Assembly: GCF_032854445.1 (NCBI RefSeq)
Contig: NC_088300.1
Coordinates: 30,549,608-30,613,607 of the forward strand
Origin: Liolophura sinensis
Taxonomy: Eukaryota > Mollusca > Polyplacophora > Chitonida > Chitonidae
Direction of reading: 5' to 3'
DNA: 64,000 nt
The stretch's first letter is position 1. Every line of letters begins with the position of its first letter. The translations under genes were made by a program, and so were the position numbers. The notes below the pieces were generated by a model that did no database searches, was not told the origin of the DNA, and was given only the letters and a program-made list of their open reading frames with translations. Shown here piece after piece: positions 3,201 through 36,900 of the stretch.

Positions 3201-6200
3201 ATGCAGCAATTTTACTTAGTCACAAATCAAGGTAAAATTCATGCACTTGATCACAAATGAAAGCTTGATACAAGCTATATACTCTTTAAGACAGGAGATG
3301 AAACCATGCTGTATGACACTGTTCTGTTATACTGAGAACAAAATGAAGTCATGAATTTCATACATCGGAAATTATTACTACAGGCACTTTTATATTTGAA
3401 TAATCTTCTTCACTAACAAAAAAACAAGGCTTAAAGCTTGAAAGATTTTTACCTACACTTGTATTTGTTTTAAAAAAACCATGATGTTGAGATTTCCCAA
3501 ATACAATTTGATTTTATATGACAGGTAAAAAACAACTGCCATTTCATCTGTTTGGTTGAAAAACTGGAGCGAGTAATGTTGGGGATCGTTTGTACATGTT
3601 CAGGTCATTTGCACTGTACACTATGTCATAGACTAGCCAATAACTAAGTTACTGAAATTCTTCAACCTTTTCACAAGTTTCCAAGGTGTTTATTCAAGCA
3701 TATTCTGAAAGCATTATTCTGTGTACACTGATGAAGTTATACTTTATATAAATCCCTGAAATCCGTCAATCTAACCAATGTAGTTGTGCCTCCAAAATCA
3801 AATTAGAAACGTAAATAAATTGCACTGAAAGGCTGAGGAACTACAGTAATCCCTAAGGCCACACCAATTTGTTTTGGTGAGTGATTGGCTACTCCATAAA
3901 AAACTGAAAATACTCCTATTAATTTTGTCAGATCTAAATGTTTCTCTGATTGTCCTGCTTTTCTAGGCTTTCTGATCATCTAAATGTGTCTTCAACAGAA
4001 AAAATATCCAGGATATAAAGTTTCACAAATTAAATGATTTTTAAGTTTCCATTTTTATATTCTCCCCCGACACTAAAAAAGAGAGTTACCCTGCCAGTAA
4101 AACTACAATTAAAACCGGCATAGCCTAAACACCATTTGGTGCAGGACAAGGTGGTGACTTACGAAAGCTTTCGGTACAGTGCACAGGATAAAGGGCAGAA
4201 GATCCTGGGTGATCCAGCTCGTGAGCTGATCTCCCGTCACATTCTCTGGGATCACAGTGAGTAAATCATGAAAAGACTCTCTGGTCAGGTCTGTAACCCA
4301 GTCATGCTGCAAAATATCACAATACACAGAGATTTGATCTACTGTATTTGTGTTTTAAGACTGTATCCAAGAATTGTGGTAAGTTTGAATACTGAAGGAA
4401 CCCAAGCTGAGCCCAGAGGTGACCATGCCACCTCACAAGATGCAAGACCAAGCTCCTGATTTAAAGCAAGAACCTGTGATTCAGGGGGATGTTTTTCAAT
4501 GGAGTCTTATCATGGTTTTAGATTTTTTGATCAAAACTGTATCCCCTGGATTAAAGTCATGGCAACACAAATGTATAAAGAAATCAAATTTATAGTCCAA
4601 TTAAAAAAAGTACTGTCATCCTATTTCCACAATTCTGTATAATTACAAAACAATCAAACTGTATAATGTTTATACACATATACTTTTTAAAGTGAAGAAC
4701 CTGGACAATGTAAAAATTGTACATTTATGTTGCAAGAAAACAAACTACATGTAAGTCAATTGTAAAAATTGTATCCAATCGTCTTTCAAGTACAAGCATC
4801 TAACCTGATGTCTTGTCCAGATGGCAAGAGCCTTGCCCAGCTCTCCCTGTTTGAACCAAGAAAATGTATCCTCCCACAAGTGACTCTTAATAAAACGCTC
4901 CCATCTCTCAGCACTGTAACAAAACACATGTACACAAGTCACACTGTTAGAATGTACACTCCCACAAGTGACTCTTAATGAAACGCTCCCATCTCTCAGC
5001 ACTTTAACAAAACACATGTACACGAGTCACACTTTTAGAATATATCCTCTCACAAGTAATTCTTTATGAAATGCTCCCATCACTCAGCACTGTAATAAAA
5101 CACATGTACAGAAGTCACACTGTTAGAATGTACACTCCCACAAGTGACTATGAACCGCTCCCATCTCTCAGCACTGTAACAAAACACATGTACACGAGTC
5201 ACACTGTTAGAATATATCCTCCCACAAGTGACTCTTTATGAAATGCTCCCATCTCTCAGCACTGTAACAAAACACACGTACACGAGTCACACTGTCAGAA
5301 TATACCCTCCCACACGTGACTCATAATAAAACGCTCCCATCTCTCAGCACTGTAACAAAACACATGTACACAAGTCACACTGTTAGAATGTACACTCCCA
5401 CAAGTGACTCTTTATGAAATGCTCCCATCTCTCAGCACTGTAACAAAACACATGTACACAAGTCACACTGTTAGAATGTACACTCCCACAAGTGACTCTT
5501 TATGAACCGCTCCCATCTCTCAGCACTGTAACAAAACACATGTACACGAGTCACACTGTCAGAATATATCCTCCCACAAGTGACTCTTTATGAAATGCTC
5601 CCATCTCTCAGCACTGTAACAAAACACATGTACACAAGTCACACTGTCAGAATATACCCTCCCACAAGTGACTCATTATGAACCGCTCCCATCTCTCAGC
5701 ACTGTAACAAAACACATGTACACGAGTCACACTGTCAGAATATATCCTCCCACAAGTGACTCTTTATGAAATGCTCCCATCTCTCAGCACTGTAATAAAA
5801 CACATGTACACAAGTCACACTGTCAGAATATATCCTCCCACAAGTGACTCATTATGAACCGCTCCCATCTCTCAGCACTGTAACAAAACACATGTACACG
5901 AGTCACACTGTCAGAATATACCCTCCCACAAGTGACTCTTTATGAAATGCTCCCATCACTCAGCACTTTAACAAAACACATGTACACGAGTCACACTGTC
6001 AGAATATATCCTCCCACAAGTGACTCTTTATGAAATGCTCCCATCTCTCAGCACTGTAACAAAACACATGTACACAAGTCACACTGTCAGAATATATCCT
6101 CCCACAAGTGACTCTTTATGAAATGCTCCCATCTCTCAGCACTGTAACAAAACACATGTACACGAGTCACACTGTCAGAATATATCCTCCCACAAGTGAC

Positions 6201-6518
6201 TCATTATGAACCGCTCCCATCTCTCAGCACTGTAACAAAACACATGTACACGAGTCACACTGTCAGAATATATCCTCCCACAAGTGACTCTTTATGAAAT
6301 GCTCCCATCTCTCAGCACTGTAACAAAACACATGTACACAAGTCACACTGTCAGAATATATCCTCCCACAAGTGACTCATTATGAACCGCTCCCATCTCT
6401 CAGCACTGTAACAAAACATATATATGATCAATGACAAGGACTACACACAGGAGAAAGAGACAGTATTACAAAATCACCCACAATACAGTTTGCACCAAAA
6501 CACACATGTAGAACAGGT

Positions 6519-6576
<58 letters not shown>

Positions 6577-9500
6577 TGGTGACAAAATTTTCTAAGTGTT
6601 CAACTCTGGAACTACCCTAAATCTTCAACAAAATCTTCAACAAATTCCACCACACACACAGCGCATGTTTTGGCATATCAGAGTAATGTTACTGGACAGT
6701 TCATTTTAGAATTTCTGACAGGTTCCTATGTGCCCCCACCTAAACAACACATTTGTTGAATTGTTGAATGAATTATAATTTGAAATTACATCTGAAGTTA
6801 TACTTTTCTGGTAGCATTTGTTGAGGATCCATGGTATGCTCAAGACCATGTAAAGTTTCCAGTGTCAAAAAGATCCACATAAAATGCTCCCGAGATCTGA
6901 ATGTGTCATTCACAATCAAAATTCCCATTTGGTGGTACTCTAATTTCTCAATCTTTCTGCATATGAAAGAGCAACTTTTAGTGTAATATATGCACATTTT
7001 TTAAACTGATCATGAAGACAAAACTACACTGGTTGGATTGCCCAGTTTCAGAGTTTCGCAAAGAGTATAATTGTCTCAGTCAACATAGAATAATGCCTTC
7101 AAATATGCTTGAATGAACACCTTGCAAACATGCGAAAGGATTTACAATACTTAATAAAACTCACCAATAGTTATCTTGTCCATACACCAGTTTATAGGTC
7201 ATCAAGCGATGAATAACTTCCAAAAGCTGAAACACAAGAGTGACAAAATCCTTCCACATTTACACAATCCCAACTGAATCCCTTCCCGAACTGTCAATCA
7301 AGAATAGAAAATAGTGCATTCATAAGCAGTATTGTTGCAAACAGGTCAACTGGATGTCCCACACATTGGTTACAAATGTTCAATCTTTGACGTCACAACT
7401 GTTTTCACTGGGAATGGAATGACAAGTAACGAAGAGGCGGTGGGACATCAGATGTATTGGATCCATCAACATGGATGGCTATAAATGGATAGGTGTTCAA
7501 GACAAGTCGGAATGCTTCTAGCTCAACTGCCGTATTTCACCAAAAAAGTTTGGTATGTAAAAATGCACTTTCAGAAGTACATAAAATTCTTAAAATGATA
7601 TTTCCATTGCCAATACTTTAGTTTTTCCGATAAAAAAATTAATTAAACTTCACAAAAAATTCTTTGAGTGACCCAATTTGATGGCTGACTCCATCGGAAT
7701 AAAGCAAAATTGGTCACTTGAAACATGCTTAACTTTAGGTCAAATACAATAAGAGGCTCCACAATGTCTAGGAGATTATAGGAGATGCTCCACCTACCCA
7801 TCACAAACAAACCAATCACATAATAACCTAATCTGCCACAAAACATCAGAGTCAATCACATTTTGCTGGTACTGAACATTTACCAGTGCCGCATCTTTCA
7901 CGAATTAACTCTAACAACATACTGATAACTCTAATAATCCACCTTAAATACACCTCAGGACCAAATACAGCTTTTTAATTTGGGCATCCTTTCAGTAGTC
8001 TAATTTGAGCTCATATATTTTCAGATATTAAGAAACCTGAACTTTATGCCTTATAAGATACCAAATTTTAACATCACAATTGTATAAAAATCTTGTCAGT
8101 GCACATGGTTGTAGGGAAATGTTTCTAACATTCAAGTTAAATTTATCAGGCAATATTCCTCAGATGATCACTTGAGATTCAAAAAATCTCAGTGATGAAA
8201 AAAAAGTACTTTCAAGCAGATAAGCAATGACAATAAATAAAAGTTCAAAAGGTTTCCTAATGTTGTATGGAAAACTACAGCTTACACTGTTTTGAATAGT
8301 ATTTATTTATTTGATTTGACCTCCAGGACAAACAAACTTCACACAAGGCCTGGACTGCCAAATAGGCAATGGAAACCGTTTTTGCAATAAAAACAAAATG
8401 ATTTATTTGGCTCTGTGACACAGTCAAAGACTGAAAAATACCTTCTTCAAATCATTTGTGGCTTTGCTTCTTTGAACATCTGTTAAATCTTTCCTTGCTC
8501 CCAAATAGGACTTCATCTGTAAAATATAAAAATAAATGAGACTAAACAGTGAACAGGATAAAAGTTTAGGATTTTACAATCACCCTTTTATAATATCAAG
8601 CATTACATACAATGCTTTAATACCTCAATGCTAATTTTCAAAAATTAATTATTTTATCTATAAATGAAATTTTTTTTATCTTGTAATACACTGTACATTA
8701 TTGTTTTCTTAAACAAAGATCTCTTTCATGGAAACAAACTGCTGCCTGTTTATCCACCAGTCCTTCATCATTCCTACACTCTGTAAAAATAAATATATAT
8801 ACCATGCATGATCAGCTTTCAATTTACACCCTTGTTCCTTACCAGTTTCTTGACGTACAGCAGTATCTTGTGAGTGTCATGTAGGGTTGGTAAAGCAACA
8901 TAGGTAAACAGAGACACAATATCTGCAATATCCTGAAACAAACCGATAAAAAAGAATTGATTGAACTTTCGAAATATTTAGAAAATATTTATTATTTAAT
9001 AATGTATACATACTGTTCAAACTTACAGTTCTTACAGACCTTCCCACTTGCGGCCGGAGAGGAAGCCAGCGTGAGTTCAAGTCCAGCTCATGCTGGCTTC
9101 CTCTCTCGTCGTAAAGTGGGAAGGTCTGTCAACAACGTGCAGATGGTCCTGGGTTTCCTCCAGGCTCTGCTCGGTTTCCTCTCACCATAATGCTGGCCGC
9201 CGTCGTATAAGTGAAATATTCTTGAGTATGGCGTAAAACACTAATCAAATAAATAAATAAATACAGTTCTTACATGAACTTTACCAAATATATTTTACTT
9301 TTAGCTTTCTAGAGATATATAAAAAAATGATTAGGACTAATGATTCTGTGGATTCTCCTTGAAAATATGTTTATTTTTTTGGAATGTATTGTAGAGAGTG
9401 AATTTATCTTTTGATTAATTGTAAGTCTTACAGGGTTCTTCAGTGTTGAATATTTAAGGTAAATTATGGCACTGGATTGGAGGTAGAGAATATTATTTTT

Positions 9501-15500: not shown

Positions 15501-18500
15501 ACATTCATGAGGCAACAGCCAACAATCTCATGCCAATTTCCAACGATCCTGCGCATTTATTCAACTGCAGTTGCCACTTTTGGGTGTCTCTCAGACGTCT
15601 GCTTTTTTGTAAAATAAACTACGCGATGGCTACCTCCACTATCGATGTACAAATTTAGCGATTTAAAGTACCAATTGCGCAAGAGCTGTTCTTTTTGGTA
15701 TAATATACAATGCATACTGGAGATGGGATATCAGGAATTGTCAACTCTCCACAAGTAATATTCAGTGAGTGCAAATATCACTTCTCTCAAGCTGACAATT
15801 CTTGAATCAGCTATCCATCAGCAAGCACCATATGTACAATTTCTGCACTAACATAAATTAACTTGAGTGAATTCTATTGTTTTAGTTTAATTTTGCCAGT
15901 CTGTCTATAATACTGATAATCCAAAATGACAAAATCTGAAACCATGTACTGAGTGGTGATCACAACTCACCTCGTGTTAAGAAACTGGTGCCCTGCTTGA
16001 TCACATCCAGCTGGCCACTGTCCGAGGACCACACGCCTACAATATTCTCACCGAAGCCCTAAAACGCACAAACTAAACACTCTTCAATAATTCATAACAG
16101 AGAAATGATTCAACACAATGATGCTTACAATGGTTTTCAAATAATGCACCCTGCCCGGTTTCCACCAACCATAATGCTGGTCGCCGTCGTATAAGTGAAA
16201 TATTCTTGAGTACGGCGTAAAACACCAATCAAATAAATAAATAAAATAAATAATGCACACCACTCTTTATTTGGTGGATCTCTGGTGGACAGGTAACCGT
16301 AACAGGCAAAGTAACACAAACTACTTTTACAACTCACTCAGATACGCTACAGATTCTTCAGAGAAGTGGCCACTGATTAGTCAACTCACCAGAGTGAGCA
16401 CTGGCTAATGATCACAGATGTGAACTTTGACTAACTGGAGAGGTTTCCCTGTGCCAAGAAAACACGTCATTATTCAGACTGTGCATGCTGCCCCCATCCA
16501 CAAAAATTTAGCACAAGTTTCACTGTTTTTCTCTTTACGGACAATCAATGTATTGTCACAGATTCATATGTTTGGGCGATGAATGACTGTTATAAGTTCA
16601 TAGGCAACAAATTACTGTTACACCTTCACAGACAGTGGATCACTGTTACAGGTTTACAGACAAGAAATTACCTCTACACACTAACCTGCTGGCTATGCGA
16701 GATTAACCACCTGCTGGCTCTGTGACATTAACCACCTGCTGGCAATGTGATGTTAACCACCTGCTGGCTATGACATTAACCATCTGCCAGGTATGTGATG
16801 TAAACCACCTGCTGGCTATGTGACATTAACCACCTGCTGGCTATGTGATGTTAACCACCTGCTAGCTTTGCAACATTAACCACCTGCTGGCTATGTCACA
16901 TTAATCATTTGCTGGCTTTGTAAGATTATCCATCTGCTGGCTATGTGGCATTAACCAACTGATGGCTATGTGAGATTAACCACCTGCTGGCTATATGACA
17001 TTAACCACCTGCTGGCTATGTGATGTTAACCACCTGCTGGCTATGTGACATTAATAACCTGCTGACTATGTCACATTAACCATTTGCTGGCTTTGTAAGA
17101 TTACCCATCTGCTGGCTATGTGACATTAACCAACTGATGGCTATGTGAGATTAATCACCTGCTGGCTATATGACATTAATAACCCGCTGGCTATGTGATG
17201 TTATCCACCTGACAGCTTTGTGACATTTACCACCTGCTGAAATTGTGATGTTGACGACCTGCTGGCTATGTGACTTTAACCACCTCCTTGGCAAGTGGCA
17301 TAAACCACCTGCTGGCTATGTGATGTTAACCATCTGCTGGCTGTGTGACGTTGACCATCTGCTGGCTGTGTGACATTAACCACCTGCTGGCTGTGTGACG
17401 TTAACTGCTTGCTGGATTTGTGATAATTATCATCTGCTGGACAAGTGACATTAACCACATGGTGGACAAGTGACATTAACCACCTGCTGGCTATGTGACA
17501 ATGAACAACATTAACCACCTGCAGGTAATGTAATATTAAGCACCTGTGTTTTATGTGACATTGACGTCGAAACAAGTTTATTATGTGACGTACCAATGTT
17601 ATGATGTTTCTCCTCAGGAAAAGAGCACATGTTGTATCTCTGGTATGAACAGTCGTCAAGTCACCTATTTCAATGGTCAGCTTTTCCTGCAAACTCTTTG
17701 AACCTGAATGGTAAATTAAAACACAAAGCATTTACTTACTATTGTTAAACCTGATAACTGTAAAGAATAAATAAAAGCATAAAGCACTAAAACTTAACAA
17801 TATACACAAATTTTAGACTGTTATCACTGAGTTTGTAGAATTTACTTCATTTTGAGAATAAATCATATCTCTAAATTACATAAACTTCATTCCTTATGCT
17901 AAAGCTCACCATCCATGAAGACTGCTGGAGTTGCCTCCCTTATCACAAACATCTGTGATGAAGTTGATAGAATAACTATGTCATACCCATCTGAAATAAA
18001 CGAAAGATTGCATGTGAAAATGACGGAGGAAAGTTCTTATCTTTTTACTATGATGAACAAAAAAGGCATGCAAGCGAGATATGCAGGAAACTTCTCATAG
18101 CATCCCCAAAACCATCTCTTGACACTCTAATTTAAAAAGTTTCATCAGATACAAAATCTTCATAGAATGAACGTAAATAAACACTGTTTGGATTTAGAAG
18201 ATTGAGCAATTCCACATAATATCTGTGTTCAGCGAATAATAATTTTATGCGAATGATGTCAATTCATACTGAATTTTTTCATCACGCATAAGATATGAGC
18301 AAACTCTTCAGTATACTTAGGACGTAGTCCTGCAACATCTGTGTTAAATACTCACTGGTGAATTTCTTGACAACAATACTCTGGAAAGTTTTCCCTCCTA
18401 TTTTATTTGGGGGCAATATGGACTGTAAAGTCAAAATTATAAACTATGACAAAAAGCACATCACTGCACACATCCATGTTACCAAAGATCAATGTGAATC

Positions 18501-20690: not shown

Positions 20691-23600
20691 ACATCTTACA
20701 CTATTCAAAAAGGGGTGGTTTAAGACCACGTTTCAATCACACCAACCCGTGGAAGGATAAGTCACTTCAGGGATCGGTGGAAGTTGACATTGGTGGCAGG
20801 TGACAAACATTGTTTTTCAGCTGACGTCAAAGCGCAACAACAACAGCAAACATTACCCCCTGTGCTAGTATGCGAAAACGAAAGTGAATAGCCTTCAGTG
20901 CCACTGAGCTAGTTTTCAACGAATACATACTCTCATAAAGGAATGGACATTTGTACGCTTTGTTGATAACTTGAAAGTCTTAATTTACAATTTATTCATA
21001 AAGTAAAGAAGAATTCACTGGGTTGGCACTACACACTCTCGATTTCATTTCGTTTCCTTTCATTAGTGTCAACCCAAGTGTACTTAGTCACAGTGTGCTA
21101 GCAACACTTTCTGACATTATGCTGTTGGTGTAGTGTGATAACTGTGAATGTATTACAGCTAGATCACCCTTTGTATTTCTATTGTGTATTTCTTCGCCTA
21201 ACCACTCTGGCGCACACATTGCATTATCACTGGCAGAACTTCCTATGTACTACCAGAGAAGAAGCCAGCATGAGCTGAACACATTGCATCGTAAGCAACT
21301 GTGTAGTCCCATATGTATGACCGTGTGTTTTAATGCTGATAACATAATTATCTGTCATTCACTTGACCATGATTAATGGTCATATATACTCTCGTTAAAG
21401 ATTTAAAAAGTAAGATGCTCTTCTACTCTGGCAAAGAATACAGTACCGAAAGTATATATCGTGAATACATTTTATCTTGTCTACAGGCCACTGAAATTAT
21501 CTACAGGACAGTTTGCCAGGTTTGCAGATGGAACAGCAACTGCCCAGGTATGTTTCAGCAAAATTTCATCACATTCTCAGGATTATGTTAACATTAGGTT
21601 TAAGTTAACATTAGTAAACAGAAAAAAGTGTGACATTAAGCATTATACCTTGATTAATGAAAGTACATTTGTTAATTCTCTTGTCTTTCTCAGCATGGGG
21701 ACACGTCAGTCTTGGTTACTGCTGTCAGCAAATCCAAACCTTCCTCTTCGTCCTTCTTACCTTTAACAGTGAGTATACCATTCAAATGCATTGGTCTCCC
21801 ACTGGGCCGTGATTAAAGGGAGCATTAGGAAGACAAAAGGTGCATTTTATATACCAAACAGAACATGCAGGTGCATCAGTGCTGCACTGTGGAAACTGGT
21901 TACAACAAAGCATATATTATCAGTTGCTCTGTTGGTTAGGAGACAGAGATACATGTACATGTAGCATGCCAGGCTATTTTGCCTTCCTCACTTTCCCTTA
22001 TTTTACATCTCTTTTTGTACTGAAATGGCCAATAGAGCAACTGTTTACATATTTGCAACATACTTCCATCATGTGGCCAGGCTGATCTAGGCTGAAAGTT
22101 TTGGGACCCTTTTGAACTTAATGCTTGTCTTTTTCACCATTTTCTATGCAAAAGACTAAAAAAGGTTTTGGTATTTAGGATCCCAAACTCCTGACCTCCC
22201 AGTGCCTTTGACAGGTTGAAAAAGGCGCTTGATTTTTTCTTGTCTTAAAGGTGGAGAAAACATAAAAAGGACATAAAGTTCACATGAAAAAGACACTTGA
22301 AAATAATTTTTGTATGGTGGGTATTTGGGACCACCTTTTTGGTCTTTATAGGCTTTGTTTAATAATGTCATAAATGAGGATGTAACACAGGTTCAATAAA
22401 TATTTTTGCACTGGAATTTGTTCTTTTCAGCTAACAAATTTATTAAATCTCAATTTGGATCATATTTTTATTTTTTACCAAGTTTGTAGGGTGATCATTA
22501 CAGCCTACACTTACAAACTCTGTTGTGAAAGGTTTGTATACACTATATAAATCATAAAATCTTTTCACGGGTTTGGAGTAAAAATTTTAACACCTCTTAC
22601 TGCTTTATCATAAGCCAAAATTTTTCATGTGGTGTGAGGTTGAAGTATGCATGTATATATTCTGTTGTTATTTTTATTTCATTATTACAGGTTGACTACA
22701 GACAGAAAGCTGCAGCTGCTGGCAGAATTCCCACAAACTATCTGAGACGAGAACTAGGGCCAAGTGAAAAGGAAATACTAACAAGCAGAATGATAGGTCT
22801 GTATCCATTTATACCCACACTTATACAGGCTTCCCACCTGTTTTACCTTTCCTAATTTTGTTACAAGCCCCCACCCATGCTACTTTTCCTACTACTTTAC
22901 AGGACCCCCAACATGTCCTACATTTCCTACTATTCTTTTATAGGCCCCCTCACCTGTCCTACTACTTTTTTACAGGCCCCCTCACCTGTCTTACTATTTT
23001 TTTACAGGCCCCTCATCTGTCCTAATTTTCCTAATATTTTTTACAGGACCAAATACTCAAATATATGGTGTCAGTAATCCCAATATGAGGATTATAGACA
23101 CCATATATTTGTGTATCCCATCACTGAGTGACCATGTAACGCATTTATCCTACAAAGACCCATTAGTTCAGTGCAGAAGACGGATGTATAGGTGAAATGC
23201 TTCAGCTATGTGACCATTATTGGATCCCAACAAAGGGAAATAACCTGTTCAGCAGACACATTTGACATCGTCTGCAGGATTTGAGAATATATCTGTACCC
23301 CATGTGACTGTTGTTACATTGTCTACTGAATGTAATGAACCATATCCCATTCTGACAGTTTGTGAAGTCAGTCAGTTTCTCTTAGCTTTAAAATACTGGT
23401 AAACATTTATCTTTTGGAACTTTAATAGGAAATTCAGTTCTAAGAGTTTTTGGTTTTCATTACAGTAGCTTCTTTAAACAGTATTACATGGCAATTCTTC
23501 CCATTGGTCTAATATTTTCATACAATTTAGTGGCAAATATGAATGTTTGTTTCTGTTAAATTAGAAATTGTTGGAGAAAATTATAGTTATTACAGTTTGA

Positions 23601-24878
23601 ATACATTTTTAGTTGCCTGCACAAACTATATGCCTCGATCAGCAAATAGAAACAACATCCAACATCCAAAGCAATGTTAAGGTAACTGTTAAGGATATTA
23701 TCTTATAAAGTACTGCATATAATGAGGTCAGGATTTGCAGGCATGTAAAGCACAATAACATGAAAGGTATCTTCTATGAATATATAAGTACTTCATATAG
23801 TGAGATGAAGTTTTGCACTCTTGTTTCTCCTACAGGCCCGAGCTCTTTAGTAGGCTTGCTACAAAATCTAAGATAACTTTGTAGAGTTATTTTGGGATTT
23901 GTATTTGAATGTGATGCTCTTTGTCCCTTTCAGATCGCTCACTTCGCCCTTTGTTTCCACCTGGCTTTTTCTGTGAGACACAGGTAAGAGTAGTTGGTAG
24001 TCCTCAAAGCACACATGAAATGCTTGGTGTTTACTTCTTGATATGAATATAGGATGTGGCCTGACATATTAAAGTAAAAAAAAACTTCACAGCTTTCTTA
24101 GTGGTAAGTAAAAATGGCTTCAAAGCACAGTCTTCCTGAGGCACCAGCAGCATTTCCAGAAATTAAGTACCCTACTGTGGTGAAGTCAACAGTGATAGCT
24201 GTCAAAACTACTTTGGCAGAGGAAGAGATGGATTTGGGAGCAATGAGCTGGTTCCGGCTTCCCAGTATGTTCATCGATGACGTGATACCCTGGAATCTAA
24301 ACCCCTGATGAGAAATGTACATAAAAAGGAGGGCCTATTAAGAAGTATAAAATATTCCTCAAGTATGAAATTTTTTTTTTTTTTTTTGGCATATATGTTT
24401 TTATGATTCTTAAAACCATTCTGTTCATTTTGTGGTACATTTTCATGTAACCTTTAATTCATGCCAGTCTGAGATTCACGTAGCCCGTTCCCAAGAATGA
24501 AAATGGCCATGGTATATAATGAAACACCATGTCAATTTATCGGTTCAAGCTAATACACAGTGTTTTGATCTCGAGTTCAGTTTACTCCGATTCATCTGAT
24601 GTTTATAATACGTGCTAAATCTTTTTTTTAATATATCTTTCAGCTGATGTGTAACTTGTTGGCCGTAGATGGAAAGAATGATCCAGATGTCCTGAGCATT
24701 AATGCAGGTATTAAACACGGTTACAAGAGCAGTTTTAATGAGATTCACAGCCATTTGTGGGAAGGTCTGTCAGCAACCTGCAAAATGGTCATGAGTTTCC
24801 TCCCACTGAGACTGATCGCTGTTTTATAAGTGAAATATTCTTGAGTACGGCATAAAACACCAATCAAATATAAATCAA

Positions 24879-24914
<36 letters not shown>

Positions 24915-27900
24915 GAGATTCAACCCACACAGAAAATCTCTGCATAATAAAGCAGAGAAACATGTAATAAAATATTTCCTTTTTAAGAACACGTTTATTA
25001 CCAGGAACCCTGAATAAAACAGTGTGAACTTTGTGTATTATTTTATTACACCAGCATTGTTGTTATGCTAGATGATAAAATGAATTCTTTTGTATCTGCT
25101 TACATACAAGACTTACACAAAATGTTGTTGAGCCACTCTCTGGGAATTTTTTTTTTTTTTTAGAAATGACACTGTGGATGTTAAAATGTGATGAAATGAA
25201 GGAATTTATTAGAAAATCGATTGACAAAGAGTTTATTTTTTACAAAGATATCTCATAGCCAAACCATCGTGAGTATTTTTAGTATTTCTTATTGGCAAAT
25301 GTGGTATTAAATCGTTAACTATTTTGAAATATCTTCACCATTTGTTTTGTTTTAGCCTCAGCAGCGTTAGCGCTGTCAGATATACCATGGAATGGTCCTG
25401 TAGGTAAGAGATGGATAACATATGACAACACAGAATGTTCAGAGACAGAGCAGTTCTCTGCTTGGTTTTGTACTGAGTAAAAGATACAATGTATTGGAAT
25501 CACTGTTATTTCGGTTTTGTTTTCAACGTCAGGAGACTTGGGTTCAAAGCCAGGTCATAAAATGGTACTCGCTTCTGTCTTGCTTAGCATGACACTAAGA
25601 GTTCAGGGCAAAGAAACTGGTTGGTTTCATGTCAGTATAATGTGACTTGGTGGGGTGTCATGTCTGGTGTCTTCAGCATGATACATCAGTAGCAGCAGCA
25701 CTTTGGCAGTGTGGGCTTGCTCTGCCACTGGAAGACACAATCTGTGTACATGCCCCTAATGACTGCTTGTTGTCATATGACTGACAAATTGTTAAGAACC
25801 TCATAAAACCCCAAGCGTACATAAAATGGCAGTGTTCGAAAAGCCATGTACATGTAATTTTGATATATTAAAGGTCTGCTCAGCTTATGTCCACCATCTT
25901 GGTAGCATTTAAAAAAGCAGAATTGGAAGTCATTATTTGCAAGCTGTAATTCGTTTATACTTAATGCCTTGAAGTTACTTTAATTCCAGCGGCAGTTCGT
26001 GTAGGATTTATTGATAACGAGGTCGTGATTAACCCCACTCGCCGTCAGATGTCACAGAGCACATTAAACCTGGTGATAACTGGAGGAGAGAGGAGTCAAG
26101 TAGGTCAGTGAATGTCATTACACAAGTTTCACTTTTCAAAACATGATTTTGGAAAACCTTAAAAATGGAGTTAGTGTTTTGCCAAAAAAATTACATTTGC
26201 TCATGACAAGATTTGTTAATATTTATATATTTATTTGATTACTCTTTTACACAATTTGAGATGTCACCCGAATTATGGTGGGAATTATGGTGTTTTGCCA
26301 AAAAAATCACATTTGCTCATGACAAGATTTGTTAATATTTATATATTTATTTGATTACTGTTTTACACAATTTGAGACCGGCCCGGATAGCACAGTTGGT
26401 AGAGCGTCCGCTTCGGGACCGGTAGATCCAGGATCAATCCTTGGTCGAGTCACACCTAAGACTTTCAAAGAAAAAAAGAAAAGTTGTAACTTCCTCGCTT
26501 GGCGTTCAGCATGAAGGGAATAGTGCAACGACTGGTTGACCCGTATCAGTATAATGGCTCGGGCGGGGCGGCTTTCTTGCCTTCGTTAAGTCGTCTCAGT
26601 GATGCAGCACTAAATAAAAGAGCGGTGGAAATCCGTCCTGCAACAAGAAGGCACATTACACGTGCATGCACCCTAATGATTCCTTCGTCGTCATATGACT
26701 GAAAAATTGTTGAGTATGACGTTATACCCCAAGCACTCACTCACTCACAATTTGAGATGTCACCCGAATTATGGTGGGAATTATGGTGTTTTGCCAAAAA
26801 AATCACATTTGCTCAAGACAAGATTTGTTAATATTTATATATTTATTTGATTACTGTTTTACACAATTTGAGATGTCACCCGAATTATGGTGGGAAGAAC
26901 CTTTCAACTTTCAACTTTCAAAACATGATTTTGAGGTGATTAAAAATGGAGATCTGATGTGCTTATGATTGTTCCAAGACCTCTGTATTTCATCTAGATT
27001 TTACCATTTTTCAAGTGGCACATTTTGCTTTCAGCCATTAAATATGGAGGAAGCGATTCATATAAGGTCACTTTTTTTTTGTGAAGTTCGATTAATTTTA
27101 TGTCAGAAAAACTTAAATGTCAACATCAAAGGTATCATTTTAAGGTTGCGAGCGTCTGAAAGTAGATTTTTACATTCCAAACTTAGATGAAATACAGTAT
27201 ATTTTTTGATATTAATCTCCTCAAGAATGGTGCACTTGTACAAGAGGAGTCAAGTTTATGGCCATAGCTAATCCATACTCAATAAAAATGTAAACGCACG
27301 AAGCAGTTTTATATTGTTTTCTCTCAGTATTAAGTAACGTGTTAACTGAACAATTAGGGTTAGTATTCTTTATCAAGTGTGGCTTCAATTTCCACCAGAT
27401 TTTCACATTTTAGGGCCATAATCCAGGAGATATGGCAGCTTGAAAACAGAGTAGTGGGTAACCACAGTTCACTTTGTGTGTGAGGCTAACGGTGGACACA
27501 CCCAGTGAGTGCCGTGAATTGTGATTATTGACCACTGTTTTCTCACGCTTCAATAGTTTCTGGATTATTGCCCTAAAATGTGATAACCTGGTGGAATTTG
27601 AATTGGTGACCTTTTTTTTTTTACGCAAGGGCTCACATTGGTAAGAGACAAGTGGTGCCAACCGACTTATGACTGCACCATGATATCATGCCAGCATCAT
27701 TATATTAACTTGTTTCTTGTTTGCAGTCATGTTAGAAGCTTCGGCTGAAAATATGTTACAACAGGACTTCATGAAAAGTATCAAACAAGGAATTAAGGAA
27801 ACAAACAGTATCATCTTGAAGGTAACATTTGTTTGGTGTTAAATTGTTTTGACAGATATCTCTGATGCCTGTAGCGGGGAAAAGCTTTTTGTGTTTAATA

Positions 27901-30900
27901 TATCTTCGATTTGATCTTACCTGGTATAAGCCAAATTTGGAAATGATGCTAATTGTAAACCTTTTTTTAGACAGATCATAACATGCCACAGATTATGTTT
28001 TGTGTTTCAGCAAAGGACTTATCATGTTTAATTTAATATATTTGCTTCAAGATTCAAGAACTCCAAAGAAAATATGGAAAGCCAAAGAGAGAACTGACTC
28101 TTCCAAACCCTTATGATAATGAACTGGTGGATACTGTGAAAAGGTTCGTAGAGATTAAAGTAAAAGAGGGCTCAAATGTGAAGTAAGGTTCATCATACTG
28201 AAAACTATGCTAAAATTACTTTTTTAAAATATTTGTTCAGATTTTTTAGGATTGTTGAAAGATATTCAAATTTTAGAATAGTAAGGTGGGCCTAATGAGC
28301 CATACTGATGGCATCTATAAACTCTGACGTCACGTCACTTTTTTTCCTGATGTTCATCACAAGGAAGCAGTATTTAGGAATGTTTTATCAGTAATCTTTT
28401 ACTCATGGGTAAAAAGAGTTATTGCAACATTCATTGTCATGATTGGAGAAAAACTTTCTGTGAGGTCAGAGCTCCTAAGCTCTGATAGTATGGTCCATAA
28501 AGCCCACCATAGAATTCAAATGTTTGGCCGCCTTTGACTCTCTTCACAAAAATCTAAAAAAATAAATGAAAGTATATTTATGCATAGTTTTAAGTGGTCT
28601 ATTTAGTGATGCATACTTCAATTTTTAGAGGGTTTTTCCTTTAACGGCACATGATTATGCAGAAACACCAGGCATAGCCAATCATTTATGACCTGATTTG
28701 CTATTATTGTTACATGATTGGTCCTTATGGGCTGGCGACACCAATGTTTCTGTGTAATCTTTAGAGCCTTAAGTCTCTGATTTAAGATATACTTTCTTTA
28801 ACATAATGCCATTGACTTTCACAAATGCAGTTACTGTAATATTCAGCTATTTCCTGTTGTGTGATTTATCACCCGAAGGCAATGGTGCTCTGCTTAATTT
28901 CATCTCAGTTCTCAAAATCTCAATTAAAATAAGTGAAATAGTTGTAAGTGTTGTTTAAAACACTAATATTGAAAGGACGAGAATAAGTCTTCAGATATTT
29001 GAAATATATGTGATCTTAAATGGTAGCATTTGTGTAAGATCATAGGTGTGTGATTGTGATGAGTCTTTTGAGAGTGTGATGACATTTCTGCTGAATTTAT
29101 CAATAAGAAAATATTGAGATTCAAATTACTCTGATCTTGTGTTGGATGTCTATATATCTGATATATATGATTTTCAGCCTGACCTCTGCTAGACTAGAGC
29201 AAGTTTTGACAGATGAAACACATGATAAGGTTTGGAACTTTATTACTGAAAGCAATGACATAGCTGGTAGTCTAGTATTGATATACATGTCTTAACATGT
29301 ATGGATTTAAGATTGTTTGACATTACTATAAAGCTTACATTTAACGTTATTAAAGCTTACATTTAACATTATAAAGCTTACATTGAATGCTGAATTTTTT
29401 AAAGATTTTCTACAAATGATTCAGTAGAAAAATACTAAAGCAAAAATAATCTTGCTATTTGAGAAAGTTGATGAAGTGTGTTTGAAGTGATACTTTGTTT
29501 AATAGAATGGAATAAAAACTTCAATACAAGGTTGTACATTGTTGTAACATCCATTATAATCTCTTGCTTTTGAATATTTCACACACTTTAATTTTTTTTT
29601 AACCAACAGTTTTCTAGAGATAATGCTTTAACAGAAATAAGGCAAGGTACCCTGGAGAAGTTGAAAGGTATTTAGCAGCTTTCTGGTAATTCATGACTTA
29701 TTGTTGATAACTATTGATGGTCATATTTTCAAATAAAATTATACAAACCAATGCAAATACTATGCATTCATTTACACTATATAAATATGAGATAATTACA
29801 TTTGTAAGAATGAAGTATAGCTCACTCTTTTTATAAGGCCTGTTTATTTTATTACTGGTGAAAAAATTATTGTGACTGTGTGTAGATTTGACTTTGCACT
29901 TACCTTGTTTTTCAATTTTAGAAAATTATCCAGATAAAGATCCGGGTTTATTGATGGAAATTATAAACGATGTGGTGAAAAGTGTTTTTAGGAGTTTAAT
30001 CTTGGATTCTAATAAGAGGTAAGTTTTCAACATTCTGAAAGTCAACAATGCTGAATAATAACTATCACCCCTTAATGCAACCTATCAACAAAGTTGTCTC
30101 CCCTTAGTCCGATTTGTAGTGATTGTCCAGATGATCCTGCCTAGAAATACAACTTTGCCCAAATTACTGCTGTGTTTTTCACCATTATTCTTGTCATGTA
30201 GCATAAGAAAAATGATGTATAAAATCAGATCAAACAGTTAAGAGTGATTTAAAGCCAGCTAAATTGAAGAAAACAGTTGCAAATCAAAAATCACATTAAA
30301 TGTTGTTTTTACATAATACGCATAATAAGAGCATGCCTTTTATTTGCTTGAAAACACAAGATGTGTGTTACTAAATAAATGGTCAGTGACACCCGTGTGG
30401 CTGTTTGTACAGTCTGACATCCATTGGAGTAAAAAATTCTTCAGTATGGCATTTAGGCGTATCAAATAAGTAAAATAAACAATATATAATCTTAAAACTA
30501 TCATTAAATATAATTCTTATAAAATGATCTTTAATATCCAGGTGTGATGGAAGAGAGCTGACTCAACTGAGGGACATATCATGTAAAGTTGACCTTTTCC
30601 GACCTCTTCATGGTTCGGCAGTCTTTCAGAGAGGCCAAACTCAGGTGAGAATTTTGTTATTTTGTATGATAAAAATTGTAATGTGTAAGAATTTTGTTCA
30701 GATTAGAGAATTTACCAAAGTGGTAAATATTTAATGACATTAAATACACACATTGTAGCAAATGAAGTAATTTTTAAATTATTCTCTCCTGGACTATAGA
30801 ATTCGGATGCCAATTTACATCAAGAGGATTGTCAGGTGATTGACGAAAGGTCCATGGGTTATTGTAAGCTCTCTGGTTTCCTTCAGCTGACAGCTGTCAT

Positions 30901-33900
30901 ACATTTGGAAAATTATTGAGAAAAACATTTAAGAACAACCAAAAAAGAAAAGGAGGGAAAAAAAGCTTGATGTAAAGCTATAAGAAGATTAAATCCAAAT
31001 AGTAAAGCAAAGTCATGTTGTTTGCAGGCTGTAATCTACAATCTAACGTCTTTTGGTAACATTTCAGGTGTTATGTACAGTTAGTTTTGACTCTCCAGAC
31101 TCTGCTATGAAGGCTGATCCAATATCTGTGATGACTGGGTAGGCAGATCTTGTCTTATAGACCTAATATACTCTATTTAACTTAGTATTTAAGATATGAC
31201 TTCAGTAACACATTCTGTGGGAATATGAAATTTTCTGTCATCTAAGAAGTATGCTTTAGAGGTTGTTTTCGAGGGTTGATTTTGAAGGCTGGAAAAATTT
31301 ACCTTCCTACAAAAAGCTACATATTAACATAATTATTTTCATTTTAAAACACCGGTCGCTGTGAGTTCAAGTCCAGCTCATGCTGGCGGCCGTACGTGAG
31401 AAGGTCTGTCAGCAACCTGCAGATGGTCGTGGGTTTCCCCCGGGCTCTGCCCGGTTTCCACCCACCATAATGCTGGCCACCGTCGTATAAGTGAAATATT
31501 CTTGAGTACGAAAAAAAAAAAAAAAATTTTAAAACGCAGTCATTATATTGTCCAGAATTTAAGATTATATATGAAAAGCCCTGAGAGTATTTTTCCATCT
31601 GTGGAACTGGATAGATCATATACTATTGTCAGTGTTGGTGATATTTTAAATATAGCAGCTGCAGAGATTAAACTGACAGCAAGCTGTTAATTGTTCAGCT
31701 TTTGGATGTACATACATTGCATCCAGAAACTTTGTGTATGTACATTAAGTAACAATGCTATGTTATCAGTTTTAGCCGTTTAATGCATTTTCTTTTCATC
31801 TTGTATTTATTGTTCTCCTTTTTTCTTAGGGGACTTAAGGAGAAAAATTTCATGCTTCACTATGAGGTAAGAATTTAGCTTTTTTTTTTCTTTTTGGGCA
31901 GTATTCTACCCACTCATTTCATTGTTCATCTGAGTATAATATAGTACAGGTAGATATGACTCGTTGTTCACATCTCTGTCAAGATGCCAAGATTTACAGT
32001 CAAGTATTTCTTGTAGGATATCAAAAGACCACCAAGGGTTCAAATTATGCAGTTCTTATTTTTGTGAGAATTGTCATAAAAAGCACAATTTCATCAAACT
32101 GATTATTCAAAGCATCAAGTTAAATTTATGTGTTTACATTTATTTATAATGCCTTTTTATCAATATAATCTTTGTTTATATAAAGCAATGTTTTTTTTCT
32201 TTTTTCAGTTTCCGCCATATGCAACAAATGAAACCGGTCGACCTGGAGCCATTGGTCGGCGGGAATTAGGCCATGGTTTGTCATATATCTTTTTTTTGAC
32301 AGCACTCTTAATTACTCAAAGTTCTAAATGATACCTCCGCACAAAGTTTATGAGAAAGAAATTACATCAGAAATACAGCAAAATTATTTTTTTGTTCTGA
32401 ATCATATTACAGGTGCCCTAGCTGAGAAGGGTTTACGCCCAATATTGCCCAGTAACTTCCCCTTTACAATTCGGCTGACTTCAGAAGTATTAGAATCCAA
32501 TGGTAAGACTCAGTTATCTGTAATTTAGAATCATATTTGAAAGTTATATTTTTCAGTATCTTTCTTCTGGGATTTTATCTTTCTCACCCACTCGAGCAAT
32601 GTAACCCTTTAACAAAATATACAGCATTAGAACCATGTCATATTTAGTGTTATATGAGTATGTGTGACTTGGTTTTGGCCGAGTGGTGCTTGTCTTTTAA
32701 TAACTAGGATACATTAGGTGCGAGTTCAATCCCGGCATTTGACTCGGAATTTGTAGATTCCCCTGATCTCACTGTTCATAGGGTTTTAGTGACAGCAGGT
32801 GACGCTGCTCGGTGGTGATTTGTAGAATCTAGCATTTGTTGAAGACCACTTGTCTTTCAGCAATACATTTTGCATATCTGTATGTCTCACATGAGTAAGG
32901 TTTCTTAGGTTTACGTCGGGTACTCTGGTTTCCTCCACCCACAAAGCTGACCGAAGTGAAAATTTCTTGAATATTGTGTTAAACAACACTGAACTAAATA
33001 TATTGTATCATTTCATTTTAGACGGCTTCAAACCTGGGTCAGGTCATACCAAAGATTATATTTATTTATTTATTTGATTGGTGTTTTACGCCGTACTCAA
33101 GAATATTTCACTTATACGACGTCGGCAAGCATTATAGTGGGAGGAAAATGGGGCAGAGCCTCGTGTAAACCCACAACCATCCGCAGGTTGCTAGCAGACC
33201 TTCCCATGTACGGCCGGAGAAGAAGCCAGCATGAACTGGACTTGAACTCCCAAACGTTTTATAAATGTTACTTGTTGCTGCCTGGCTTGGCACTCAGCAC
33301 TGATAGGTTAGAGCAGAAGGACTGGTTGGCCCGGTGTCAGTATAATGTGACTGGGTGAGGTGTCATATCTGGTGTCTTTGGCATTATATTTCAGTGGCGG
33401 AGGCACTTTGGCAGCATGGATTCGTCCTGCCATAAGAAGACACAGTGTGTGTACACACTCTTACTGACTCCTCGTCATCATATGACTGAAAACTTGTCAA
33501 GTATAACGTTAAACCCCAAGCATTCTTTCATTCATCCCTTTCATTTGTATCTGGGGCCTCCGTGGCTCAGTCGGTTAAAGCGCTAGCGCAGCGTAATGAC
33601 CCAGGAGCCTCTCACCAATGGGGTCACTGCGAGTTTATGTCCAGCTCCTGCTGGCTTCCTCTCCGGCCGTACGTGAGAAGGTCTGCCAGCAACATGCGGA
33701 TGGTCCTGGGTTTCCCCTGGGCTCTGCCCGGTTTCCACCCACCATAATGCTGGCCGCCACCGTATAAGTGAAATATTCTTGAGTGCGGCGTAAAACACCA
33801 ATCAAATAAATAAATAATTTGTATCTGACTGTATTGTATGTATGCTGTTCACCAGGTTCATCTTCTATGGCATCTGTGTGTGGGGGAAGCCTAGCCCTGA

Positions 33901-36900
33901 TGGACGCTGGAGTACCTGTGAGCGATCCAGCCGCTGGAGTCGCCATTGGACTGGTTACCCGATACAATCCCGATAAACCTACTGACATCAAAGACTACAA
34001 AGTTCTAACCGATATCTTGGTAAGTCGTCTGCTTTTCTCCTGCCATTAGCCTAAAGTATGAAAAGCTCAGGGAGCTGTTTTTCTAAAGTGTTTTAACGTT
34101 ACAAAGGTGTAGGTATTTACACAGACTCATTTTTTTCCTACATAAGTTTCTCTGGCTGGTGTAACTTCTACAACCTATCAGCGACTAAGTTTTAGACAAG
34201 AACTGGAACTCTTGCGCATTATGCAAAAAGGTAATAAATGTACGGGCTGATTTAGAGACAACAACTACAACACTGGCACTTGCGCACGCACATTCTTCCC
34301 TGTAGTGTCTTGCCTGATGCTAATGGCGGCATCTGCCCACCACATTTGCAGTCATATTTGCAGGTTTCTCATGGCCATAATCAGACTTACACCACCGCCT
34401 TAGTAAGTGCAAAATTTATGACCTGTAGATGGCATAGATTTGGTTTGAGAAATCTTGATGTGGTAAAGTTTAAGACTTGAGATGGGCCACACTCTGTTAT
34501 AAATCCCAAAGAGAAAAAAAAAACTTGATCTCAATCTGTATAGTTCTGTGCATTTTTACTGCTTGTATGCTTTTAAAAACAAACTGGAAAACGTACATTA
34601 TTGATAATTTGTGTGACATGAACTAAATTCAGGACAAGAACTGAATATGTACAGGACCCAATGTTGAGAAATGTTAAACTAATAAAGCATGCAATGTCTC
34701 ATAAATTTGAAGATTAAGTGAATTGTATTTCAAAGTTTTTGTTAGTAATGATTATTTTCCGTACAATGACCTTGTGATTTACAGGGGATAGAGGACTACA
34801 TGGGTGACATGGACTTCAAGATGGCTGGTACCAAGAAAGGAATAACAGCATTGCAGGTGAAGAACTAGTAATTTTGATCAAGTAATAACGGTACACATAA
34901 TTTCCTGAGACTTTTTTCTTTGAAAGTAAAACAAAACTTTGTGTGGAATATGTAAAAGTATTCAGCAGAATCGTGTGTGACAAAACATAAAAATTGTTGG
35001 ATATAGAATATAGTGGATAAGTAGATGTGACAGTGATGTTTTGTGTATTGCAATATTGCAATGTAATATGTTTTTCTTTGCTTGTCCTTTTGCATCATAC
35101 AAGAAAAAGCAACAAAAGAAAATTATTTATGTATTATTATTTTTGGTTTGGCTTTGCTCTTTGCAGGCTGATATCAAAATTCCAGGTTTACCACTAAGGA
35201 TAGTAATGGAGGCAATTGAACAGGCCAGAGGTAAGGCCTCAGCTTTGTGCATAGATTATAATATGCTAGCTCAGCAGTTATTTTCAAAAGTTTTATCTTA
35301 GTAGTAAGCAATGTGTATACACTCACTAAAGCATGCTAGCCTGACTTTTCCTTGGCAAGATATGAGTGTCCTGAAAACACCCTCCTTTTGTTGAATATTT
35401 ATTTATTTATTTATTTATTTGATTGGTGTTTTACGCTGTGCTCAGGAATATTTCACTTACACCACAAGGGCCAGGATTATGGTGGGAGGAAACCGGACAG
35501 AACCCGGCAGAAAACCACAACCATCCACAGGTTGCTGTCAAGCCTTCTAACTTAAGACCTGAGCAGATTTTTGTTGAATAGGTCAAGGCTTACTACCAAA
35601 TCAGACAGGGTATAGGGCCTTGAATACTTTGAAAAGCCTGGAAGTTAAAAGTAATTTGAAAAGCTTTGAAATTGAGATCTAGCTTGGCACAAATGGTATC
35701 CTTTTTCATATCATTTTAATATTTCCGCATGGGTTTTTTGGGGAATGAAGAGGCACTTTAAATTCAACAAGTACTAGTTTCAGTTTTGCTGTCTTCTGTT
35801 TCAGATGCCAAAAGTGAAATCCTGCGAATTATGAATGAGACTTTGGCACACCCACGAGTGGGGCAAAAAGAAAACAGCCCAGTTATTGGTGTGTTGTTGT
35901 TGTTCACACAAAGCATGTATACATGCATCTTTAATCTTATGACTAGTGGAAGACTACTTAATACAGATGTACACTGCTTCGGTGGCCTAATGGTTAGAGC
36001 ATCTGCTTTGAAATCGGGAGACCAGGGATCAAATCTGGGTCATGTCATAACACAGACTTTGAAAAAGGGTACTTGTTGCTGCCTCGCTTTGCGTTCAGCA
36101 TTGAGAGGTTAGAGCAAGAAACATGGTCCCAGCGTCAGTGACTGGTTAGGGTGTGATGTCTTCAGCATGATATTTCAGTGGCGACAACGCTTTAACGGCA
36201 TGAACTCACTCTGCCACAAGAAGACACAGTATATTCACGCATAGCTAATGAGTTCTCGTCATCATATGACTCTCTAATGTTTATTTATTTATTTGATCGG
36301 TGTTTTACGCCATATTCAAGAATATTTCACTTATACGATGGTGGCTAGCATTATGGTGGGAGGAAACCGTGCGCAGTCCGGGGGAAACCCACAACCATCC
36401 GCACATTGCTGAAGGGCCTTCCCATGTACGGCCGGAGAGGAAACCAGCGTGAGCTGTACTCACAGCAACCGCATTGGTTCTTCTGTAATGATTTTAACTA
36501 CATGGTGCCATACTTGTAATACAATTCTGTTAGATTATTTTATTGAAATAGATTGTTATCCCAGTAAGTTTATTTTATTTTTTGGTATTTATAGAAACCC
36601 TGGATGTGCCCATTGCTAAGCGATCCCGATTTCTTGGAATTGGTGGATGTAATCTTAAAAAGCTCCAATCAGAAGCCGGTTAGTATCTGTAGAGATGAGT
36701 AAAAGAAAAATACCACTTTCTTCATGACTGACGAACAGAAAGAGCCAGTTTCCAAAATCATGTTGGATGACAGTAAAAACAGTGGTATTTTACAAGGGAC
36801 TAGCTTGCTCTTGAGGCAGCCATATAGTATAAAGATTTTAGGAATCATTGTAAATAAAATGTCATCAGTGTACTTACCATAAATCAATCACTTGATGCAT

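Follow-up and report, generated by a model that had tools for sequence, protein, structure and literature searches.

How does the splicing machinery find the productive acceptor of an exon when near-identical copies of that acceptor stand in a row in front of it, and does such a row matter to the gene that carries it? The question is raised by a minisatellite in a 64,000-nucleotide stretch of contig NC_088300.1 (hereafter the window) from the genome of a chiton, a species published as Liolophura japonica and assigned to L. sinensis by a later correction (PMC12441733).

A tandem array at the start of a KNTC1 exon

An earlier note on this DNA had assigned the locus to KNTC1 on the minus strand and had placed a real exon, numbered 19, at the end of the array. 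That exon (4805..4913, minus strand, 109 nt) ends in the donor CAG|GTTAGA and is repeat over its first ~51 nt. The exon upstream of it, numbered 18 in the note (7165..7226, minus strand, 62 nt), was read from the sequence with acceptor CAG|CTTTT and donor TTG|GTGAGT, and the next one, numbered 20 (4163..4306, minus strand), measures 144 nt if its end, picked by eye, is ...CTTTC|GTAAGT. The introns on either side of exon 4913-4805 are 2251 and 498 nt long, and the longer of the two (4914..7164, minus strand) holds the array, which fills 1505 nt of it (4914-6418). The open frame across exon 4913-4805 matches PF24520, the Pfam family of the first ARM-repeats domain of KNTC1, above the cut-off, and the exon from 4306 extends the same profile, falling just under the cut-off when taken alone. 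When the peptides of 7226-7165, 4913-4805 and the first part of the exon from 4306 are joined, the product covers PF24520 positions 114-212 (E 1.6e-24) and aligns with residues 775-867 of human KNTC1 (PDB 7qpg, chain 7qpg_R; E 1.4e-4), while exon 4913-4805 alone gave no useful match in a library of solved structures. Gene, strand and exon are thus supported by the family profile and by the human protein, as is the join of the exon to its upstream neighbour. A search of the assembly (609,464,459 bases in 632 contigs, all match counts being lower bounds) found one KNTC1 gene, four of at least seven matches lying within it (two of the seven over the family cut-off). A second KNTC1 gene or a retrocopy, which would expose the splice form, was not found among these matches, the remaining three of the at least seven being below the cut-off.

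The array itself is a single one in TRF (4863..6418, minus strand; period 88, 17.7 copies, 92% matches, score 2608), and TRF, unit alignment and comparison of the edges give a unit made up of the last 13 nt of the intron, the first ~51 nt of the exon and a junction of ~24 nt. The units match the exon closely until roughly exon base 43-47, and the similarity stops around base 51; on its upstream side the array opens with the last 13 intron bases, and the ~24 remaining bases of each unit match neither the exon nor the upstream flank. There are 18 acceptors on the minus strand, at 6405, 6317, 6229, 6141, 6053, 5965, 5877, 5789, 5701, 5613, 5525, 5437, 5349, 5261, 5173, 5089, 5001 and 4913, and they are spaced by 88 bases in 16 of the 17 intervals and by 84 in one (the 84-bp unit is that of 5173). 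By unit alignment, 16 of the 17 decoy units, with acceptors 6405 to 5089, occupy 5002..6405 (minus strand), and unit 17, which bears the nearest decoy, occupies 4914..5001 (minus strand); acceptor 4913 takes its CTAAC branch-like motif, its pyrimidine tract and its CAG from the tail of this unit. The full exon and its donor are reached from copy 4913 only. The earlier claims of 17 upstream units, each with a 3' splice site and the first 47 exon bases (~47-51 here), and of a last unit that alone continues to a full exon and donor, therefore hold, the TRF array and the unit alignment agreeing on the former. The array was found at this one place in the genome, with at least nine matches. A search for older, diverged units in three flanks outside it gave best local matches no better than shuffled scores, since out of 200 shuffles 28 and 37 equalled the match in the upstream flank, 9 and 32 that downstream of the exon, and 67 and 62 that in the rest of the exon. 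About 100 bases upstream of the array lies an AT dinucleotide run (6520-6577).

Differences among the units carry a record of their history. The pairwise distance among the 17 averages 0.063 (range 0 to 0.167), units 2, 8 and 10 are identical, and a two-unit alternation runs along the array (lag-2 permutation p 0.0095); identical units and a lag-2 pattern are typical of tandem turnover. The most diverged units are 13, 15 and 16, on the exon side, with a mean distance of 0.111 for unit 16; unit 1, at the upstream edge, is not among them. Among the 16 full-length units, the part derived from the exon has a diversity of 0.071 and the remainder one of 0.047; for the 13 bases up to and including the acceptor the value is 0.028. 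Values of 0.028 or less also occur in 24 of 88 windows of the same size and in 20% of random 13-column sets, and exon-derived columns differ from the others with p 0.20 (variable columns 12/47 vs 7/41, Fisher p 0.44), so that the low diversity of the acceptor part is compatible with selection on the decoy acceptors and also with its absence.

Eighteen acceptors ahead of one donor

On generic consensus matrices the real acceptor scores 2.76, as do 12 of the 17 decoys, three others scoring 2.24 and two -1.72. The low pair, 5965 and 5001, carries AAG, which qualifies the earlier description of the acceptors as near-identical: AG is present in all 17 and CAG in 15. Of the 17 decoys, 16 have a branch-like YTNAY motif no more than 50 nt away, in 15 of them as CTGAC or CTAAC at the distance found at the real site. 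Judged by acceptor score and by placement of the branch-like motif, most decoys are therefore not visibly weaker than 4913. The one that stands apart is the nearest, 5001, which ends in AAG, has no YTNAY motif within 50 nt, and is the sole decoy of the 17 without both a YAG and such a motif; the second nearest, 5089, retains CAG and CTAAC.

Whichever of the 17 decoys the upstream exon is joined to, an in-frame stop follows, and open protein continuity is obtained via acceptor 4913 only. The premature stop behind each upstream acceptor supports the decoy character of these copies. The stop falls at TTC TGA or TTC TAA in 14 of the 17, earlier in two (5965 and 5089) and later in one (5173, the 84-bp unit); the sequence GAG GAT ATA TTC TGA, given in the earlier note for the stop into which the copies read, is the commonest form, and others exist, such as GAG TGT ACA TTC TAA. 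Exons derived from the decoys would measure from 197 to 1601 nt, with 197 nt for 5001 and 285 nt for 5089.

Several other uses of the array can be set aside from its splice signals. Internal units are unlikely to serve as cassette exons, since every GT in the array scores below the donor of the exon (best 1.69 vs 2.55 on the same generic matrices, a small margin), and cassette exons inside the array were ruled out on this ground. Recursive splicing at AG|GT was ruled out by reading, the copies having AG|TGC. A splice VNTR of the donor type, as in ABCA7, does not fit a unit that bears a 3' splice site and GTs below the exon donor score, and intron gain by tandem duplication was rejected because the array is without a competitive donor and the existing intron accounts for the continuity of the exons.

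We consider the array to be a mirage minisatellite, in which exon definition would pick the last acceptor and which would be near neutral, and we give this reading a probability of about 0.77. The tandem unit spans the intron/exon boundary of a real exon, and the units hold splice signals able to act as cryptic sites, as their AG and CAG show. A tandem duplication would have happened to cover the boundary, 17 extra copies may then have been added by unequal exchange or slippage, and exon definition would start at the donor of the exon (4804) and reach back to the closest acceptor (4913). Since the copies lie upstream of the sole intact exon and have no competitive donor, they should behave as intron. 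According to a splicing study, exon definition takes over above an intron length of 250 nt and brings a preference for the sites closest across the exon (PMC9225289). Both introns here exceed 250 nt, which argues for exon definition and so for the use of 4913; under exon definition between 4804 and 4913 the decoys would mostly be ignored, leaving the array near neutral. The same source reports from human data a preference for upstream 3' splice sites, present overall and reduced when both introns are long, and does not state that the preference reverses (PMC9225289). As the preference is merely reduced, some use of decoys would be possible.

The closest known parallels to the array come from amphioxus, for which mirage minisatellites are described in Adh3, the globins BflGb6 and BflGb9, troponin C and PGBD5 (PMC3087553, PMC3902484), the PGBD5 report citing those of Adh and troponin C (PMC3902484). 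As in KNTC1, the BflGb6 unit joins the 3' end of an intron to the 5' part of an exon, and many amphioxus units keep their splice signals (PMC3087553). The amphioxus units are 81-100% identical and are described as evolving in concert within an array (PMC3087553), to be compared with pairwise distances of 0-0.167, identical internal units and a lag-2 pattern in KNTC1. The chiton array sits in a mollusc and in another gene, and its 17 extra units measure 88 bp, whereas the units of BflGb6 measure 150-160 bp and number 6 and 3. The two BflGb6 counts belong to two haplotypes and represent copy-number variation (PMC3087553), and by analogy it is plausible that the number of KNTC1 units varies between individuals. 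Among titles and abstract openings of the open-licence literature searched, none concerned a mirage minisatellite in a mollusc. What is seen in KNTC1 is thus a structure of a known though rarely described kind, earlier known from amphioxus; the present example comes from a mollusc and exceeds the amphioxus globin case in copy number.

Two human systems offer further comparison. The intronic 25-bp VNTR of ABCA7 likewise has a splice site in its unit and lies between two exons near a boundary; it differs in that its unit holds a donor and the KNTC1 unit an acceptor, and in that the influence of the ABCA7 repeat on splicing and expression has been measured (PMC5954066). Human segmental duplications also contain minisatellites at exon-intron boundaries that are able to alter splicing (PMC2812944). 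Those repeats are linked to novel introns or retained repeats in recent paralogs (PMC2812944), whereas for KNTC1 one gene was found and no new intron is proposed.

The earlier note had further suggested that the array might affect the dosage of a checkpoint gene. We find no support for this: in amphioxus, Adh3 data and RT-PCR suggest that mirages leave regular splicing undisturbed (PMC3087553), although the human ABCA7 VNTR does alter splicing and expression, and a regulatory role of the KNTC1 array is unlikely. Constructs with duplicated splice sites are classical experiments, and the KNTC1 array is their natural counterpart. With 18 near-identical acceptors ahead of one donor, it sets exon definition against first-come recognition in a natural test.

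Arrays at exon boundaries elsewhere in the genome

Exon boundaries of the same genome were surveyed in a sample of 71 exons, consisting of 62 of 81 myosin head matches and 9 of 24 tRNA-synt_1 matches; six of the nine synthetase exons were covered by the automatic scan only, and the other three fell outside the overlap test. Donor-side arrays, whose unit holds the exon end and the donor, were found in 7 of the 71 exons as judged by eye, and acceptor-side arrays in 0 of the 71 after curation by eye. The seven are L057 7960-8043 (31 bp, ~6 copies), L060 304-429 (~32 bp, ~7 copies), L063 9230-9415 (66 bp, ~8 copies), L063 6715-6840 (31 bp, 18 copies), L065 982-1176 (104 bp, 2 copies only), L066 529-702 (~130-140 bp, at least 4 copies) and L068 1388-1582 (124 bp, 8 copies), on contigs C1, C11, C12, C3 and C8 of assembly G000. 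Like the KNTC1 array, these myosin arrays repeat an exon edge and its splice site in tandem beside an intact exon; they differ in lying on the donor side, the KNTC1 array lying on the acceptor side.

Before curation, the automatic scan had returned eight donor-side arrays and one acceptor-side array among the 71 exons (binomial p 0.039). Two donor-side candidates, at L061 and L042, were removed by eye because their arrays begin inside the intron, and L060, missed by the scan, was added by eye. The acceptor-side candidate at L057 6792 was removed as one of three similar exons taken as alternative exons; these three adjoining myosin exons lie at L057 5696-5800, 6192 and 6792 and are probably alternatives to one another. 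The curated 7 against 0 gives a sign test p of 0.016, for a hypothesis framed after the data had been seen and in a small, non-independent sample, in which two of the seven arrays share L063 and all seven are in myosin exons. In this sample, an acceptor-side array such as that of KNTC1 is the rarer polarity. The rarity would fit a cost of decoy use, and the bias, donor 7 and acceptor 0 of 71 in a small sample, leads to a prediction, open to test, as to the kinds of splice-site duplication that are tolerated in evolution.

Minisatellites are dense in this genome, arrays called by TRF with a period of at least 10 covering 27,297 of 147,627 bases (18.5%) around the 62 myosin exons, as compared with 5.5% in the window. 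An array overlaps five of the 62 exons, where circular shift predicts 12.7 (P 0.003), and 330 exon bases lie within arrays against 2045 under the same shift. Nearby direct copies were found for 9 of 65 exons and, in length-matched sets of 65 intronic segments, for 14, 14, 16 and 16. Arrays thus arise widely, and exons carry fewer of them, as under purifying selection. Boundary-spanning arrays seem to be common in this genome, as a spill-over of its dense minisatellites, and they probably involve nothing beyond dense minisatellites at exon boundaries; an array at a boundary would survive where the intact exon is left with a good site of its own. The chiton survey suggests that minisatellites of this kind are possibly frequent in a genome.

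Alternative readings and neighbouring arrays

The mirage reading could be extended by the weakness of the nearest decoy. Acceptor 5001, whose exon of 197 nt would be of ordinary size, may have been disabled by selection, so that the array was tolerated. The loss of both signals at 5001 alone of the 17 decoys and the position of the most diverged unit, 16, next to it would fit, but the argument is post hoc, the chance that a single doubly defective decoy is also the nearest is 1 in 17, divergence is common anyway at the edges of mirage arrays (PMC3087553), and 5089, with an exon of 285 nt, has kept both signals. We regard this addition as doubtful. A broader picture that contains it, possible yet tentative, would have minisatellites routinely crossing exon boundaries in this chiton (7 of 71 sampled exons) and mirages genome-wide outside amphioxus, with donor copies tolerated and acceptor copies purged because in a transcript the true acceptor would come after any added one; KNTC1 would then be an exceptional 18-way competition of acceptors, kept workable by exon definition together with decay of the nearest decoy.

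It could also be considered that the array acts as a poison, some KNTC1 transcripts joining decoys, running into a stop and being degraded, with copy number tuning the level of KNTC1. The stops behind all 17 decoys, the 15 of 17 decoy acceptors that score equal or nearly equal to the real one, and the length-dependent change of splicing and expression caused by the donor-bearing VNTR of ABCA7 (PMC5954066) are compatible with this. The acceptor part is moreover the least variable of the unit (0.028), but that value is not unusual by the diversity comparisons given above, amphioxus mirages are reported without disturbance of splicing (PMC3087553, PMC3902484), and comparable arrays stand at unrelated myosin exons. 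Such tuning is unlikely.

Use of whichever acceptor is transcribed first would make the acceptors from 6405 onward the common ones, the allele producing little KNTC1 and the array being recent and mildly harmful. The overall preference for upstream 3' splice sites in the human data (PMC9225289) points this way, as do the identical units, which suggest recent amplification, and the 0 of 71 acceptor-side against 7 of 71 donor-side arrays, a pattern that general harmfulness of acceptor arrays would produce. On the other hand, this is the single KNTC1 gene found, with an intact exon and an intact frame, and exon definition favours the acceptor closest to the donor, so that predominant use of the early acceptors appears distinctly improbable. 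An artefact or false expansion of the assembly, conceivable because a single haplotype is represented and tandem arrays are prone to misassembly, is very improbable for an array of ~1.5 kb set against PacBio HiFi reads with a mean of 8,347 bp at 14x (PMC11068029) and for units that bear distinguishing variants in an ordered pattern. The mirage reading is accordingly the one that we retain.

Two more arrays of the window were examined as mirages and rejected. One (16684-17500; 25 bp, ~33 copies) lies in a KNTC1 intron, begins shortly past the donor of the exon ending near 17590 and does not include that exon. The other (22925-23024; 32 bp) is wholly intronic in a gene on the plus strand, repeats the pyrimidine-rich, acceptor-like ...TTTACAGG and has its next exon ~900 bases further on. 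This gene (22690-36100, plus strand), which we take from its motifs to be PNPT1-like, stands head to head with KNTC1; its exons resemble mitochondrial polynucleotide phosphorylase, with Pfam RNase_PH below the cut-off only. Elsewhere in the assembly, contig C99 of G000 carries COX1 at about 8.3, 23.9, 39.5, 54.9, 70.5, 86.0 and 101.5 kb, seven copies ~15.5 kb apart, one of them shorter, which look like a head-to-tail mitochondrial concatemer, real or artefactual, and a separate single copy lies on C632.
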